DNA from: Amyloporia xantha
Taxonomy: Eukaryota; Basidiomycota; Agaricomycetes; Polyporales; Adustoporiaceae
Assembly: GCA_036971615.1 (NCBI GenBank)
Contig: JAYKKR010000020.1
Location: 496,001 to 560,000, forward strand
Direction of reading: 5' to 3'
DNA: 64,000 bases
Shown: piece by piece, positions 2,601 through 17,025 of the stretch
How the letters are laid out: each line of letters begins with the position of its first letter
Numbering within the stretch: the stretch's first letter is position 1
The notes under the pieces: model-generated
Seen by the model: the letters and a program-made list of their open reading frames with translations, nothing else
Told to the model about the DNA's origin: nothing
Database searches by the model: none
Position numbers and translations under genes: made by a program

Positions 2601-3338
2601 CTACTGATGCACAGACCTCCCGTCGACTGAGGACGTGTCTGCCACCGGCCAAGCTGGACCCAGCTGATTTTCCCGGACGTATGCATACAACTGCGTCCAA
2701 TCCCTGCACACGTGTGTCATCCCTACGCCATTCGTACCTGCCAACTTGCCGTCGATCTCCACGTTGAGAGCATCGAGGGTGAGGTCTGATGCACAGAGCA
2801 CGGCCTGACGCAGGAGGTTCAGACACCGCCCGCTCTCTCCGTCCGCACCGTTGATCAGGGCTACTCGCAAGACCTCCACACAGCGCAGCTGACGGAACAT
2901 CGCCAATTCGAATTCCTGCCCTATGGATCCGGATTGTGTCGAGAGGATCAGAGTCCCGAATGGTGAAAGTGAGTGACCTTTCCGCTTACCCTCCGGACCC
3001 AGTTTCACGGCTGTAGTACCTTGCGGAAACTCAAACAAAGTTTGCCAGTTCAGCCAGGAGTACCAGCCACTTATGGTGTACTTGTCGGAATCGTAGATCA
3101 TCATGGCCACTGGATCCAGTATGAGAGGCAGCTCTCGGGGATGATCATCTCCGACGTAACCTTGTGTGGAGAGCAAACGCATGAGCCATCTCTGAGAAAA
3201 CGTTCAAGGAGAAGGCGCACTGTACTGTCGGCGGTCGATAGAATCGCTCTCTACCCACCGCTGGGTCGTAAAGACGTTGAGGACCAGGCTAACAGCAAGG
3301 GCGACGAAGATGAAGACGGAGGACTTGTCAACGGACAT
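2601..3338 (-). CDS. UstYa-like (DUF3328) protein with degenerate HxxHC motifs
   Basis: Three exons on the minus strand: 3221-3338, 2990-3160 and 2601-2920 (202 aa). All junctions are phase 1, in the same places as in the paralogue at 16300-17025. The start is MSVDKSS at 3338, followed at once by a hydrophobic segment (VFIFVALAVSLVLNVF) typical of UstYa membrane anchors. Family landmarks are YVGDDHPRELPL near residue 42, the LNLLRQAVLCASD block and CRDWTQLYAYV near the C-terminus. UstYa proteins are thought to oxidise and cyclise Kex2-released peptides in the secretory pathway, and two HxxHC motifs are considered essential. Here the first reads RQLRC and the second ESGRC, so all four expected His are missing. 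I read it as a catalytically dead or repurposed paralogue, transcribed divergently from the membrane gene at 3906. Confidence 0.85.
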
Positions 3339-3905: not shown

Positions 3906-4892
3906 ATGGCGTCCTACGTACCTCTTCAACGCTATGACCCAGAAGATGATAGTGCAGGAGACGTCGACAAGCGGCCTCTGCTCAAGGACGACTCGTACAA
4001 TCCTGAGCCGCGCGAAGTTGCAAAGTCGCCGAGTAAATGGACGGACTGGATAATTCTGTTCCTCTCCTTGCTCGTACTCGTGAGCGCAAGCATGCTCTAT
4101 GCGAGCTCATCGCGACTCCCCGTGCCGCGATACGCTCAAGGGCTGCGCATGCCAGACCAGCATCCCGGACTCGATCAAGTCGACGAATTAGCGAAGAAGA
4201 GAGCAGGTTTGTTTATTTTTGCTGTGTATACTCCTTCTCAAATTGAGCTCGCGTTGTGCAGGACCAATGATGATATTCCCTAGCACTATTGTACGAGCGA
4301 ACAAGGCACTGCCAGATCAAGTTTACGAGAGGGGCCGTCATGTAGTGTTGAGTGATAACGTGCGAAGAGCCTTGCATTCTGTGCCGATCTGCCGTGTACT
4401 GATAAGCCCGTGTTAGGACTCGATGTTCTACCAACTGCGTTTGCGAACATCCAAGTTCAAATCTTGTTATATCGACGCCATCGTCCCCACGCCCGAGAAG
4501 GGTCGCGCTGGGAACAAGACCTACACCTCATCTGGGCCGCTCAGCGCAATCCAGGTCTGGAACGTGACCACTCCCCCCGAACGCATCACCAGCCTCAGCT
4601 GGAACACCCGTCCGGAGCGGATCGCACTGCTGGGCACGGTGGCGTTCTACCCGGAAGACGAACGGACGAAGATGCTCGACCTCGAGGATGGTTGGCAGCT
4701 GAGGGCGCCAACACCGCGTTTTGCGTGCGGTGATGGCGGCGTCCTGACGTATGAAGTCGCATGCGAGGGATGCACGCTCGAATTTGACCAGATATTCTCA
4801 GACCCTCCATTGGGTGAGTGCAGGCGTGCTCTAGATGCTGATTCAGATGCTGAATATAAGCTCTAGCGTTTGACCTCCTCGAGATCGGTTAG
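3906..4892 (+). CDS. Single-pass membrane protein of unknown function (cluster-associated)
   Basis: Four exons: 3906-4206, 4262-4359, 4417-4813 and 4867-4892 (273 aa). The start MASYVPLQRYDPEDD is preferred over an upstream TTG. An acidic cytoplasmic-type N-terminus of ~50 residues is followed by one transmembrane helix (WIILFLSLLVLVSASMLYA). The larger C-terminal part would be luminal or outside; it contains the block AIQVWNVTTPPERITSLSW, several Cys (FACGDGG, VACEGC), and ends AFDLLEIG. The last short exon is supported by an identical arrangement in the relic at 15461-16018, whose end reads AFNLFEIV. I know similar single-helix proteins as a widespread Agaricomycete family of unknown role. 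Fragments of this gene accompany each precursor copy, so it belongs to the duplicating unit. A role in peptide handling is only guilt by association. Confidence 0.8.
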
Positions 4893-5763: not shown

Positions 5764-6041
5764 CTACTTCGAGAGATCTGAAGACACAAAGTTTAGCCAA
5801 AAAAGTCGATCACTTTTCGTTATGTACTCGCCTTCGGGAAAGGTGCAAACCTCCTACCTTCGCGCTTGCTATACTGTCAGAAAGTGGGTCTATACTCAGG
5901 CTGATTCGCAGACAAACTCACCATCAGGAAGTGTATAGGTCACCGCCCACGGGTTAGACAAGACCTTCGCATATTCGATGAGCGAATGATTTTGCATCCT
6001 CATAAGAAAAACCCACCAGAGGGGACCTTGATCCGAGTCGT
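5764..6041 (-). pseudogene. Decayed 3' repeats of precursor A
   Basis: Downstream of the in-frame stop of precursor A are recognisable but broken units of the EGGEVYTFPD type. One, just 3' of a splice-like GTGAG at about 5920-5960, still spells VTYTLPD in one frame but has an upstream stop and a frameshift. Another at about 5835-5872 keeps KRE but is 37 nt instead of 45 and so breaks frame. At 5764-5777 a terminal exon still encodes DLSK-stop behind a CTTCAG acceptor, exactly as in precursor C. This shows that the ancestor of copy A had the same repeat type as copy C. Confidence 0.7.
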
Positions 6042-6623
6042 TCAGATGTAAGCCTCGCCCTCACGTTTTCCGAGTTCTATTAAGACACGATCAACCATTT
6101 TTCTTGCATTTTCTGAATAACTTAACCCACCAGCCCGGGGAGGCAAGCCATCTACGCGTTCCTCGAGATCTGTTTATTCCGACTCGGAGTCAGAGTCGAG
6201 TTACGCAACGACACCCCTTTGAATTAAACTTACCTGTACCATAAAGTTTCAACCCAACGCGTTTCTCGATATCTGTTGATTTCGAGTCACAGTCTAGTTA
6301 CGCAACAACACCCATTTGTATTAAACTTGCCTGGACCATAAAGTTTCAACCCAATGCGTTTCTCGATGTCTGGACCATAAAGTTTTAACCCAATGCGTTT
6401 CTCGACTCTGACGTCTGTTCATATCCATGAAGTCGGGCAAAGCGTTTCATATCGTTTAATAGGGCGACTTACCCTCACTCAAACCTGCACAATATTCACG
6501 AATTCAATGGTCATGTGAGTAAGGAGTTGAGCTATAACAAGAGAATCACTGACCCAGGGGAACGGCCGCTGTCGCGTGCAGGAGAGAGAGTGCGCAAATG
6601 ACAAAATTAGACTTGAACAACAT
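6042..6623 (-). CDS. RiPP precursor A, Kex2/UstYa type, core (I/V)GLKLYG(P/T)
   Basis: Six exons on the minus strand: 6554-6623, 6473-6484, 6331-6414, 6234-6272, 6131-6169 and 6042-6076, giving 92 aa. Exon 1 encodes a secretion leader, MLFKSNFVICALSLLHATAA then VPL. A 12-nt microexon adds GLSE. Exon 3 (84 nt) has two fused repeats, each EKRIGLKLYGPD. Exon 4 (39 nt) encodes DIEKRVGLKLYGT. Exon 5 has a damaged dibasic site (DLEERVDGLPPRA), and exon 6 stops after KREGEAYI. Every internal junction is phase 1 (G/AN), so exons can be added or lost without breaking frame. Exon 3 uses a GC donor (GCAAGT). KR in each unit fits Kex2 processing and the core keeps a Tyr. The late stop could be the true end or the start of decay. 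Confidence 0.75.
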
Positions 6624-8040: not shown

Positions 8041-8508
8041 ATGAAATGAGTGTCGCAAAGCCGCCGACGACATGGACGAATTTGATTGTCCTACTGGTAT
8101 ATATATCCATTTGGTATTTCCCGGCGCTTGTGATTGCATGCATGCTGTATTAAGCGCAGGTAAGCGCGCGCTCCTACTATAGGCTCCTATATCTCATCAT
8201 CTGGGCCGCTCAGCGAACGCATCACCAGCCTCAGTTCAAGTTGAAACACCCGTCCGGAGCGGGTCGCACTGCTGGGAACCGTGGCGTTCTACCCTGAAGA
8301 GGAAAGGACGAAGATGCTCGACCTCGAGGATGGTTGGCAGCTGAGGGCGCCAACACCGCGCGTTTCGCGTGCGGCGTCCTGACGTATGAAGTCGCATGCG
8401 AGGGATGCACGCTCGAATTTGACCAGATCTTTTCAGACCTTCCGTTGGGTGAGTGTAACTAGCGTGCTATAGATGCTGATTCCGTTGGATATTCTCGAGA
8501 TCGGTTAT
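8041..8508 (+). pseudogene. Relic of the membrane-protein gene (unit B)
   Basis: Two homologous pieces of the gene at 3906-4892 survive. 8050-8150 is a degraded transmembrane exon, reading roughly KPPTTWTNLIVLLVYISIWY and then a stop. 8195-8508 is a diverged copy of exon 3 and the last exon, matching 4530-4892 over long runs such as GACGAAGATGCTCGACCTCG. The part between is deleted, including most of exons 2 and 3, and small indels break the frame. It lies tail-to-tail with precursor B, the same layout as the intact gene and precursor A. Confidence 0.8.
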
Positions 8509-9019: not shown

Positions 9020-9553
9020 CTACTTCGAGGGAACTGAAACCAGAGTGTTTAGTCAAAAAAGTTGATCCCTTCAGTTACGAACTCGCCTTCGGGAAAGGTG
9101 TACACTCCGCCACCTTCACCATCTTCGAGATCTATTGGCACACAATCAACGATTGTTCTTGCATTTTCATCAGAATAAACCCACCGTCATCAAGTTGCAC
9201 TCCGTATATGAGTGCGGGCATTGTACGTTTCTCGTGCTCGAGATCTGTTCACCCAAAGTCAAGTGAATACATCGGCACTCCTTCATATGAAGCTTACCCT
9301 CAGTGTAAAATAGTCCCGGGGTTAGGCGTTTCTCGACTAGGACGTCTATTCATATTCATAAGGCGGTCAAAGTTTTTCAATTAGCCGAATGGGGAGACCC
9401 ACCCTCAGTCAAACCTGCACGGTATTCACGGATTTGACACTCATGTGAGTAATCAGTTGAACGATAACATGAGAATTACTGACCCAAGGGAATGGCCATC
9501 GTCACTCGTAGGAAAGAGAGTGCGCAAATGACCGCAATAGATTTGAACAACAT
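9020..9553 (-). CDS. RiPP precursor B, Kex2/UstYa type, with mixed cores
   Basis: Six exons on the minus strand: 9484-9553, 9403-9414, 9298-9345, 9185-9244, 9087-9131 and 9020-9033 (82 aa, open throughout). The leader is MLFKSIAVICALSFLRVTMA then IPL, followed by microexon GLTE. The next exon encodes DVLVEKRLTPGLFYTE and the next DLEHEKRTMPALIYGVQLDD. The third encodes DLEDGEGGGVYTFPE, where KR has become DG, and the last exon encodes VPSK-stop. All junctions are phase 1; the fifth exon uses a GC donor (GCGAGT). Two KR sites would release two different Tyr-containing peptides, and the third unit is recognisably of the precursor C type. The intact frame across six short exons argues for a working gene. 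Confidence 0.8.
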
Positions 9554-9629: not shown

Positions 9630-9783
9630 GTTGTTATCCAACCAACACTACATTAGTCTAAACCCAGTTTGTTGCAAAAAGTCCATCATACATGTTCTCA
9701 TGACAGAGAAAATGTGTCTGATGTCTCTGAGGTGCTCGCTAAGGACTGATTCGCTTCCCGAATGGCGACGTCGCGCAAACCCC

Positions 9784-10091
9784 CAGTCTCCTACCCAGCC
9801 TTCTCCGGGCGGTGAGAGGGGCTTCATCCTAGGGACTTATTCTATGCTATGTTCTAAATCATGTGACTGCTTAATACTATCACGTGCCATCAGATCCCAA
9901 TTCACAGATCAACCTTATTCCCCTCGACCGCCCTACGAAGACTGGCACAAAACATTTGTAAACAAACCAGCCACAAGCACGCCGGGGTGGCTAGCAACGG
10001 CAAGCCAACGGCGGACATTCAAAATTAGAGAAAAGGCGTAAATCATAGAATTAGTGGTCGGCCATTTTTGGAGAACGAGTGTCGTCGCGTC
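9784..10091 (+). repeat. Left terminal inverted repeat
   Basis: Exact reverse-complement partner of 10513-10820 as far as I compared them by eye. Confidence 0.85.
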
Positions 10092-10512: not shown

Positions 10513-10820
10513 GACGCGACGACACTCGTTCTCCAAAAATGGCCGACCACTAATTCTATGATTTACGCCTTTTCTCTAATTTTGAATGTCCGCCGTTGGC
10601 TTGCCGTTGCTAGCCACCCCGGCGTGCTTGTGGCTGGTTTGTTTACAAATGTTTTGTGCCAGTCTTCGTAGGGCGGTCGAGGGGAATAAGGTTGATCTGT
10701 GAATTGGGATCTGATGGCACGTGATAGTATTAAGCAGTCACATGATTTAGAACATAGCATAGAATAAGTCCCTAGGATGAAGCCCCTCTCACCGCCCGGA
10801 GAAGGCTGGGTAGGAGACTG
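10513..10820 (-). repeat. Right terminal inverted repeat
   Basis: Partner of 9784-10091; it ends at GGAGACTG immediately before the right 9-bp target duplication. Confidence 0.85.
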
Positions 10821-10829
10821 GCAAACCCC

Positions 10830-11741: not shown

Positions 11742-13222
11742 CTACTTGGAGAGATCTGAAGACAGAGTTCAGTCAAAAAGTCAATCACTTACATTGTGTA
11801 CTCACCATCGGGAAAGGTGTAGACCTCACCACCTTCGCGTTTGACAAGATCTATGCGTCCTCACTGAGCGAATGATTTTGCATTCTCATGGAAAGAACCT
11901 ACCATCCGGGAAGGTGTAGACTTCGCCTCCCTCACGTTTCGAGAGATCTTTATACGTGTCAACATCGTCCCTGAGATTCCAGAGTACACAAACTCACCGT
12001 CGGGCAAGGTATACACCTCGCCACCTTCACGTTTCACGAGATCTAAGCCCAGTTGTTAACATTATCCTCAGGATTCTACAGTACATGAGCTTACCATCGG
12101 GGAAGGTATAGACCTCGCCCCCCTCGCGCTTCGTGAGATCTTGGTCCAATCGTCAACAAATTTCTCAGAATTCCATAGCACACAATCTCACCGTCAGGGA
12201 ACGTATACACCTCGCCACCCTCACGCTTCACGAGATCTAAGCCTACTTGTCAGCGTTGTCCCTAGAATTCCAGAGCAACACAAGCTTACCGTCAGGGAAG
12301 GTGTACACCTCGCCACCCTCACGCTTCGCAAGATCTTGGCCTGTTCGTCAACATTTTCCTGGAATTCCGCAGCAAACAAGCCTACCGTCGGGGAAGGTGT
12401 AGACTTCGCCTCCCTCGCGTTTCACAAGATCTTGGTCCAATCGTCAACAAACCTTCTGGAATCCCGGAGCACATAAGCTTACCATCAGGGAAGGTGTAGA
12501 CCTCGCCTCCTTCGCGTTTTACGAGATCTTGGTTCAAATGTCAGCAGCGTCCTTAATTTTCCGAAACATGTACTCTCACCGTCGGGGAAGGTATACACCT
12601 CACCACCCTCGCGCTTGACGAGATCTTGGACCATTTGTCAACACATTTCATAAATTCGAGAACGTACAATCTCACCGTCGGGGAAGGTATAAACCTCGCC
12701 TCCCTCACGTTTCGTGAGATCTAAGTCTGTATGTCAATAGTGTCCCTTAAGTTCGAAAGCACATAAGCTCACCATCAGGGAAGGTATAGACCTCGCCTCC
12801 TTCGCGTTTCACGAGATCTTGGGCCATATGTTAATAAACTTCTTAGAACACCGGAGCATGTAATCTCACCATCCGGGAAGGTGTAAACCTCACCGCCCTC
12901 ACGCTTCGCGAGATCTTGACCCACTTGTTAGCATTTTCCCTAGAATCCCAGGACACAAACTTACCATCGGGGAAGGTATAAACCTCGCCTCCTTCGCGTT
13001 TTACGAGATCTGTGTCCTTGCGTTCTATTCGTATCCTTTTAAATACGGGCAAAGTCTCTCATGGTGTCGAACAAAGAACCTACCTGCACGATATTCACGA
13101 ATTCGACGCTCATGTGAGTGCGAAGTTGAATAGCAACATGATAATTACTGACCAAGGGGAGCAGCCGCTGTCGCTCGTAGAAGAGAAAGTGCGCAAATGA
13201 TGAAACTGGACTTGAACAACAT
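11742..13222 (-). CDS. RiPP precursor C: 13 tandem 45-nt exons, core EGGEVYTFPD
   Basis: Minus-strand gene of 15 exons and 222 aa. Exon 1 (13153-13222) encodes the leader MLFKSSFIICALSLLRATAA then APL. Thirteen repeat exons follow, each exactly 45 nt, with upper ends at 13009, 12914, 12817, 12720, 12624, 12527, 12430, 12334, 12236, 12139, 12042, 11947 and 11850. The last exon (11742-11755) encodes DLSK-stop. Each repeat reads DLxKREGGEVYTFPD, with x = V, A, T or S; one repeat (11998-12042) has YTLPD. Repeat introns are 50-53 nt with GTRAG/GTAGG donors and AG acceptors, always phase 1 (G/AT). Intron 1 is 143 nt; the 12-nt microexon of copies A and B is lost here. KR implies Kex2 cleavage, and the Tyr/Phe-containing core is a plausible UstYa cyclisation substrate. 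Family knowledge: ascomycete dikaritin precursors have the same leader-plus-repeats logic. Confidence 0.88.
11806..13009 (-). repeat. 13-unit tandem array, ~97-bp period (exon plus intron)
   Basis: Unit spacing is 95-98 bp: 45 bp of exon and 50-53 bp of intron. Exon parts are highly similar and differ mostly at synonymous positions (Gly GGT/GGC/GGA, Tyr TAC/TAT, Asp GAT/GAC, Arg CGT/CGC). Intron parts are more diverged. Confidence 0.9.
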
Positions 13223-15460: not shown

Positions 15461-16018
15461 ATGGAATTGAGTGCCGCAAAGTCGCCGAGTACATGGACGG
15501 ATTCGGTTATCCCATGTTTATGACCACACGCATGCTGTACACGAGCTCATCAGGCCTACGCGCTCCGCGACATGCACAAGTAGTACGTTCGCCCTACCAC
15601 TATTTTCGGCTCGCTGAGATCAACCAACTAGCAAAGCAGAAGACTTGGTTCTCCCTTTCGTTCTTAATGTGTTTGGCAATCCGAGCATGCACGATGTAGG
15701 ACCGTTGACGCTTTCCCCTTGCACTAGTACTGTCGTATGCACAGACAGATTGGTGCCTGGCATTGCCGACAAGGTCTTTAAGAGGAGTCTCGGGAACAAG
15801 AGTTATATATTCTCCGGGGCTCTGACCGTGATCCGAGTTTGGAACGTCGATACCCCAGAGGATAGGGCTGAGACAGTCGAAGACATGTCCGATGGATGTA
15901 CGCTCAGCTTTCACCAAATCTTCTCCGCCCCTTACACGGGTGGGTGCATGCACGTTCGAGAGGCAGATTCAAACGCTGAATGCATGAACAAGCGTTCAAC
16001 CTGTTTGAAATTGTCTGA
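15461..16018 (+). pseudogene. Truncated copy of the membrane-protein gene
   Basis: It aligns to the gene at 3906-4892: KSPSTWTDSVIPCL and then a stop; MLYTSSSGLRAPRHAQ in a shifted frame; GNKSYIFSGALTVIRVWNVD; and DGCTLSFHQIFSAPYT, joined across an intron to AFNLFEIV-stop. The N-terminus is missing, the transmembrane helix is disrupted by a frameshift, and roughly 50 residues between VWNVD and DGCTL are deleted. It is convergent with the UstYa-like gene at 16300. Confidence 0.75.
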
Positions 16019-16299: not shown

Positions 16300-17025
16300 C
16301 TACGCATGCATGTGCGTCGTCGCATTCTCCTTCTTCGCGGGCCACTTCCCATTGAGCTGGTTGTCCGTGATATAATCATACACCTGCGTCCAATCCCTGC
16401 ACGAATGCGTCGTCTGCATGCCCTTCGTCTCCAAGGTCGTGTCCGCAGCGCACAGGAGCGTCTGCCGCAAGAAGTTGAGACAATGCGATGCATGCCCGTC
16501 AGGCTCGCCGATGAACGCCTCCCTGATCATTTCGAGACAATGCAGCAGGTGGAACATAGACACGCCGAACTTGCGCCCTAGTGACCGGCGACACACAGGT
16601 CAAACGTGAAGGGCATATGGCGGTGAGACCGGAAGGGACGCACCTTGGGAACCTAGACTGACGAAGCCGTGCGCTCGGGGAAAGTGGTCGATGGCATGCC
16701 ACTCCAGCCAGGAGAACAGGTCGGCCTGGCGATAGCTGTTGTTCGGCGCGACGTCCTCGAAAGCCATCTCCACGGTGTCGAGGCGGAGAGGCAGCTCGCT
16801 CGGAAAGTCATCTCCGACGTAACCTGTCAAGCATCGCAAGAGACGTCAGTCTTGATCGCCGCTGTGTAAGAAGGCGACTGGCGTACTGTACTGGCTGTCG
16901 TCAATCGACATCGTCTTGTGTATGCGCCTGAACGCGAGGATGTTGACCAGGCTGCTGATGGCGAGAGCACACAGCGCAATGTTGCGCATGGTGCGCCTCC
17001 ATCGTTTTGAGATGTGTTCGAGCAT
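16300..17025 (-). CDS. UstYa-like (DUF3328) oxidative cyclase candidate
   Basis: Three exons: 16887-17025, 16644-16823 and 16300-16577 (198 aa), with phase-1 junctions identical to the paralogue at 2601-3338. It starts MLEHISKRWRRTMRN and has a hydrophobic anchor (IALCALAISSLVNILAF). DDSQYSYVGDDFPSELPLRL follows; the Ser codon of QYS spans intron 1. The two hallmark motifs are intact: HLLHC (in MFHLLHCLEMI) and HASHC (in HASHCLNFLRQTLLCAADT). CRDWTQVYDY lies near the C-terminus. UstYa-family proteins install oxidative cross-links on Kex2-released RiPP cores in the ER/Golgi. With intact motifs and three candidate substrates nearby, this is the best candidate enzyme of the cluster. The frame is fully open. 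Confidence 0.9.

Follow-up and report, generated by a model that had tools for sequence, protein, structure and literature searches.

Thirteen near-identical 45-nt units on the minus strand of an Amyloporia xantha contig raise the question of whether a fungal peptide precursor can be built from cores that are each encoded by an exon of their own. Such a gene was proposed in the initial annotation of the window, the whole 64-kb stretch of DNA analysed here. Based on our analysis, this gene (gene A) is a selected exon-per-core precursor that sits within a UstYa cluster, and the genome has at least three families of this kind, that of gene A included; the splicing and chemistry are predicted.

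Predicted exon layout and coding constraint of gene A

Regular-expression extraction on the minus strand from 13222 to 11742 returned 13 units of 45 nt, each with AG before it and GTRRG after it and spaced 95-98 nt from start to start; the donors are GTAAG or GTGAG in 11 units and GTAGG in two (Table 1). Both the thirteen units every ~97 bp and the bordering AG acceptors and GTRAG or GTAGG donors of the initial annotation were thus recovered. Across both strands of the 64 kb there are 39 AG-N45-GTRRG sites, 13 of them on the minus strand within the 1,481-nt gene A. The inter-unit introns vary between 50 and 53 nt while the repeat exons are invariant in length. Read in phase 1, 12 of the 13 units encode DLxKREGGEVYTFPD (x being V, A, T or S) and the other is of the TLPD type (DLVKREGGEVYTLPD), so the proposal that every unit encodes the former holds for all but one. 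Lys-Arg (KR) is found in all 13. Similarly, the exact 45-nt size stands for the 13 units as extracted, with the reservation that repeat exon 1 may begin at an alternative in-frame acceptor (start 13024) 15 nt upstream.

When the leader, the 13 repeats and the last exon are joined, the frame is open up to the stop, in line with the secretion-leader exon and closing DLSK-stop exon originally described, and nothing beyond the leader is fused to the repeats. As judged by eye, the predicted N-terminus of gene A, like those of genes B, C and D described below, is hydrophobic and ends in small residues (A-x-A-like); also read by eye, a branch-site-like YTRAC motif lies near the acceptor in 11 of the 12 inter-unit introns of gene A. 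AAG, a less usual acceptor in fungi, ends eight of the 13 introns downstream of intron 1. All of the repeat exons are symmetric and each could be skipped in frame.

Table 1. Coordinates of the predicted genes and exons (positions in the window unless a contig or locus label is given)
Feature	Position	Strand	Description
Gene A exon 1	13153..13222	-	signal-peptide-like MLFKSSFIICALSLLRATAAAPL; phase-1 end; counterpart exon in both paralogues
Gene A repeat exon 1	12965..13009	-	45 nt, DLVKREGGEVYTFPD; 60 nt if started at 13024
Gene A repeat exon 2	12870..12914	-	45 nt, DLAKREGGEVYTFPD
Gene A repeat exon 3	12773..12817	-	45 nt
Gene A repeat exon 4	12676..12720	-	45 nt, DLTKREGGEVYTFPD
Gene A repeat exon 5	12580..12624	-	45 nt
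Gene A repeat exon 6	12483..12527	-	45 nt
Gene A repeat exon 7	12386..12430	-	45 nt
Gene A repeat exon 8	12290..12334	-	45 nt
Gene A repeat exon 9	12192..12236	-	45 nt
Gene A repeat exon 10	12095..12139	-	45 nt
Gene A repeat exon 11	11998..12042	-	45 nt, DLVKREGGEVYTLPD
Gene A repeat exon 12	11903..11947	-	45 nt, DLSKREGGEVYTFPD
Gene A repeat exon 13	11806..11850	-	45 nt
Gene A last exon	11742..11755	-	14 nt, DLSK stop
Gene B	9020..9553	-	exons 9553-9484 (70 nt), 9414-9403 (12 nt), 9345-9298 (48 nt), 9244-9185 (60 nt), 9131-9087 (45 nt), 9033-9020 (14 nt)
Gene C	6042..6623	-	exons 6623-6554 (70 nt), 6484-6473 (12 nt), 6414-6331 (84 nt), 6272-6234 (39 nt), 6169-6131 (39 nt), 6076-6042 (35 nt)
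Membrane-anchored protein gene	3906..4866	+	one hydrophobic stretch near N-terminus; approximate exon model
UstYa gene U1	16300..17025	-	exons 17025-16887, 16823-16644, 16577-16300; PF11807 E 3.8e-14 on last exon
UstYa gene U2	2601..3338	-	exons 3338-3221, 3160-2990, 2920-2601; PF11807 E 1.9e-8
Gene D	G000:C45:394117-395522 (L062:1774-3179)	+	14 exons, 12 of them repeat exons
Gene E	C32, L067:53471-52443	-	
Gene G	C32, L069:104824-103633	-	
Gene H	C32, L070:94559-95296	+	

The variation among the units is that of coding sequence. Sixteen of the 45 columns vary among the 13 units, third codon positions accounting for 14 of them (hypergeometric P ~1e-8). Mean pS is 0.627 and mean pN 0.032 (pN/pS 0.05), pN dropping to 0.005 when residue 3 is excluded. 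Identity is 0.56 at third positions and 0.61 in the 12 inter-unit introns, as against 0.97 at first and second positions together. The three-base rhythm of variation begins at the acceptor and stops at the donor, the variation turning aperiodic at the splice sites. With introns and synonymous sites drifting together while the amino acids stay frozen, gene A is a clean case of exon duplication. As each of the 13 units falls in an ORF of its own, plain ORF-based precursor searches would miss the gene, as had been anticipated.

Paralogues and UstYa genes around gene A

Two paralogues, two UstYa genes and two further precursor families add to what the initial annotation listed. The paralogues, genes B and C, lie in tandem beside gene A on the same strand and encode different cores. 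Gene B has a complete spliced frame with three unlike units (cores LTPGLFYTE, TMPALIYGVQLDD and EGGGVYTFPE), the third without KR, and gene C encodes IGLKLYGP cores, its 84-nt exon holding two units without an intervening intron. The internal exons of the two genes (12, 39, 45, 48, 60 and 84 nt) are all multiples of three, every intron is in phase 1, each gene has one GC donor, and AAG acceptors are found in neither. Since paralogues with other cores keep the phase-1 exon-per-unit plan, the plan outlived the change in core sequence. When the 46.8-Mb genome was searched at the protein level with a shortened gene A as query, the best candidates, to which scoring was confined, included 13 matches, every one of them at genes A, B and C. 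Downstream of the gene C stop, at ~5770-6042 on the minus strand, are decayed gene-A-like units, as if gene C descended from an A-like ancestor whose cores were exchanged for its present ones.

A membrane-anchored protein is encoded at 3906-4866, and its gene is possibly part of the cluster. The pieces of this gene had no Pfam match, and at E <= 0.1 the matches to the outer part of its protein were confined to this contig. Partial copies of it at ~8212-8483 and ~15777-15980 (plus strand) lie beside precursor genes, and it seems that they were duplicated along with them. In a self-comparison of the window, from which matches <90 nt and matches within the gene A array were excluded, an inverted repeat of 309 nt (9783-10091 and 10513-10821, 100% complementary and 421 nt apart) lies between genes B and A; it may reflect the recent insertion of a mobile element or an error of assembly.

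Matches to PF11807 flank this group of genes on the minus strand at 16303-16599 and 2604-3203, within the UstYa genes U1 and U2, respectively. In the alignment both HxxHC motifs of U1 are intact (HLLHC, HASHC), whereas both are altered in U2 (RQLRC, ESGRC) despite its open spliced frame; judging from these motifs, U2 is a possible inactive partner. U1 is 91% identical across the whole query to the JGI-derived protein P0001 and 49-65% identical to UstYa proteins of Wolfiporia, Daedalea, Piloderma, Serpula and Suillus. In total, 28 proteins out of 53 candidates were related to U1 at E <= 0.001, and we take those carrying an organism name to be all from Agaricomycetes, in agreement with the basidiomycete origin put forward in the initial annotation. 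The fold predicted for P0001 from 28 sequences (mean pLDDT 60, pTM 0.34) was too poor for a fold search, and a search by sequence yielded no notable solved relative, the best of four chains (E 0.0068) being an unrelated hydrolase over 30 residues. Given the two adjoining UstYa genes, the original assignment of gene A to the UstYa-type RiPPs is sustained, modification of the peptide being a prediction.

Split precursors elsewhere in the genome

Searching the genome with PF11807 gave 33 match rows; manual grouping reduced these to 23 genes spread over 11 contigs, a count in which two UstYa pairs (on C26 and C52) with identical scores may each be one region assembled twice. Split precursors total eight genes in three families at six loci (on C13, C45 and C18, and three on C32), and nine of the 23 UstYa genes lie at these loci. 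The two families besides A, B and C comprise five genes with one or two exons per repeat and with introns inside nearly all of the Kex2 Lys-Arg sites. Used as queries against the genome, genes A, D and E matched no family but their own (E <= 10), and therefore the three families are called separate.

In gene D the repeat exons are 48-60 nt long and the introns are in phase 0. Each repeat exon ends in SYSDYYK and the next opens with R, such that 12 of the 13 KR sites are split between K and R by an intron and arise only by splicing, the first lying within one exon; after splicing, KR precedes every repeat. When 11 of the 12 repeat exons are compared across their final 13 codons, pS and pN are 0.416 and 0.006, respectively. 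EA, EP or EV dipeptides follow KR, which suggests STE13-like trimming. Gene F on C18, a paralogue of D, has two units, the second KR being split as in D. Like genes A and B, genes D and F have intact spliced frames.

In the third family (genes E, G and H) every unit consists of two exons, 45 and 18 nt long; an intron interrupts the Lys codon of KR, and each gene is divergent from a UstYa match 2.1-2.3 kb away. The unit of gene G is KR SDLVTAGALDDFY TLDENL KR, with five units in the part of G covered (pS 0.397, pN 0.042). Between genes E and G, pS is 0.551 and pN 0.129. Within gene E, pN (0.088) is about equal to pS (0.090) and the gene may therefore be decaying; KP takes the place of KR at one of its four sites. 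Some units of gene E also offer an in-frame CAG acceptor 12 nt farther upstream, the use of which would remove KR. With the long-exon acceptor placed there, gene E has no KR and pN exceeds pS; this placement was rejected after comparison with G and H, and the acceptor was moved, giving KR in three of four units, so that its position rests on that comparison. In genes D, G and H the cleavage sites of the proprotein mostly exist only after splicing. AAG acceptors number 5 of 12 in gene D, 9 of 10 in gene E and 10 of 12 in gene G, and the numerous AAG acceptors in the repeat introns of A, D, E and G are perhaps weak or regulated sites.

No precursor was seen at the other 14 UstYa genes, in flanks that ranged from 1.5 kb (three of the 14) to ~10 kb; since KR-repeat scans of UstYa flanks missed gene F, which was found by protein search, absence at these genes is not established. 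Besides gene D, gene E and one array on G000:C35, the KR-repeat scans of other UstYa flanks gave only scattered, noise-like two-copy matches. That array (L049:3014-3963) is a uniform 86-bp minisatellite of 11 copies with 94% matches, less than 10 kb from a UstYa gene. It was considered as another split precursor and rejected on its uniformity and its lack of a comparable third-position bias. As the stretches scanned were selected as flanks of UstYa genes in one genome, the count of six loci is uninformative on precursors elsewhere. The proposal that the units of gene A are coding microexons separated by introns is borne out by selection bounded by the predicted splice sites, by the phase-1 plan of the paralogues and by the two further families built alike.

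Proposed processing, known systems and implications

Gene A probably encodes a secreted precursor that carries many cores, is processed by Kex2 and belongs to the UstYa (dikaritin) type, with 13 symmetric phase-1 microexons spliced into one frame and an array grown by unit duplication. Under this scenario, splicing would join the thirteen 45-nt exons into one reading frame, the signal peptide would lead the chain into the secretory pathway, and a Kex2-type protease would cleave after each KR, which a carboxypeptidase would then remove. The main products would be EGGEVYTFPDDL(V/A/T/S). Among the 12 predicted products ending at KR, EGGEVYTFPDDL is followed by V in seven, A in two, T in two and S in one (the S from the TLPD unit), and the last predicted product ends in DLSK. 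U1 would then probably cross-link the Tyr side chain of the gene A core, a step proposed from the role of UstYa proteins in ustiloxin-type peptides (PMC7329392). The cores EGGEVYTFPD, IGLKLYGP, LTPGLFYTE and TMPALIYGV each contain Tyr. Unequal exchange of units of exon plus intron would have enlarged the array. Because the repeat exons are symmetric, gain or loss of a unit would alter the number of cores and leave the frame intact, and exon skipping would do likewise in RNA. In a collection of 5.8 billion proteins, no relative of the gene A precursor was found among 24 candidates at E <= 1, nor was any found with an A+B+C profile among 159 at E <= 10; this collection depends on gene calls and such split genes could be missed there.

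Other readings of the locus can be weighed against this one. That gene A is a non-coding minisatellite or decayed array, its frame an accident, is extremely improbable and was rejected. Tandem Repeats Finder reports a 97-bp array at gene A and decayed units lie behind gene C, but the third-position pattern and the low pN/pS of gene A are absent from the control, the 86-bp, 11-copy minisatellite, in which third positions make up at most 13 of 29 variable columns in any of the six frames (a crude comparison of ungapped copies). Also against it are the intact spliced frames of genes A, B, D and F.

The two remaining readings accept the repeats as coding. In one, which we regard as unlikely, the gene structure is right and its products are linear peptides, the UstYa genes being incidental or acting on other substrates. 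Many Kex2-processed repeat peptides are apparently without extensive modification (PMC9769878), UstYa genes are numerous in this genome, U2 looks inactive from its motifs, and the dipeptides after KR in gene D resemble STE13 substrates. The presence of Tyr in the cores, the divergent UstYa matches near E, G and H, and the proximity of split precursors to UstYa genes at six loci (all of the stretches examined being UstYa flanks) argue instead for a link between the two. In the other, slightly less likely still, repeat exons are skipped or alternatively used, the introns serving variation by giving a population of precursors that differ in core number. The symmetry of every repeat exon, the possible weakness of the AAG acceptors and the in-frame alternative acceptor before repeat exon 1 would fit such a role, whereas the very strong constraint on each copy suggests that all copies are used.

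Like the dikaritins (ustiloxin, asperipin, phomopsin and victorin), gene A has a signal-peptide-like start, near-identical cores, Kex2 sites, a core Tyr and adjoining UstYa/DUF3328 genes, the HxxHC motifs being present in U1 and not in U2. Unlike in dikaritin precursors, the cores of gene A are separate microexons and the host is an agaricomycete; the peptide product of gene A is a predicted one. To our knowledge, the repeats of ustiloxin/asperipin/phomopsin-type precursors lie in continuous coding sequence. In fibrillar collagen genes, repeat units are carried by small symmetric exons arranged in tandem, many of them 45 or 54 nt long; the likeness to gene A is in the gene plan alone, as collagen is an animal structural protein without peptide release. 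Borosins carry a fused methyltransferase. Gene A differs from both cycloamanides and borosins in its signal-like exon and KR sites and in having nothing else fused to its repeats. Cycloamanide (amatoxin-type) and borosin precursors are cytoplasmic substrates of S9 oligopeptidases (PMC9769878).

The Kex2-processed repeat proteins of basidiomycetes, as described in the accessible parts of PMC7329392 and PMC9769878, are like gene A secreted and KR-separated and also occur in Agaricomycetes. The near-identical repeats of that class are found here (13 in A, 12 in D), as are dibasic sites between repeats, the exceptions being the third unit of B and one of the four units of E. GigA and the epichloecyclins of Epichloe similarly involve a secreted repeat precursor, kexin sites and a UstYa-like cluster gene; unlike gene A, GigA has imperfect repeats of 27 aa and is from an ascomycete (PMC7317419, PMC8982410). 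The SP7-like repeat effectors of arbuscular mycorrhizal fungi are secreted, with repeats and a conserved intron before the first of them, and the accessible part of PMC11333574 mentions for them neither an intron per repeat nor a Kex2/UstYa system. By word count, "exon" and "splic-" are absent from the main texts of PMC7329392 and PMC9769878, and "intron" from that of PMC7329392; PMC9769878 uses it once, on intron-less sequences amplified from cDNA. The suggestion that the exon-per-core layout is undescribed agrees with the open full-text literature, in whose accessible portions (including PMC6339444, PMC9233826, PMC12048977, PMC9632046, PMC8893723 and PMC3990503; subscription journals and the original gigA, ustiloxin and asperipin reports lying outside its scope) we found no description of repeats divided among exons in this way.

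DUF3328 genes were reported near 103 of 1,680 repeat precursors in Basidiomycota (6.1%) and near 1,647 of 5,372 in Ascomycota (given as 30.1%), and the authors asked whether a different motif is used or cyclisation hardly occurs in Basidiomycota (PMC7329392). Precursors cut into exons of 12-84 nt are invisible to ORF searches and should be hard for gene finders, and thus part of this gap could be an annotation artefact. A bolder generalization, which we hold tentatively and lean somewhat against, is that one or two microexons per core are the general rule of UstYa-associated precursors in this mushroom lineage, arrived at by three or more families separately and with introns within or close to the Kex2 site. 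Core number could then evolve by whole units that keep the frame and might be tuned through exon skipping, and the layout would be a main reason why so few basidiomycete precursors are found beside UstYa genes. Kex2-processed multi-core precursors beside UstYa genes are known; what appears new is that each core would be its own microexon, a split layout that would hide such peptide genes from ordinary searches.
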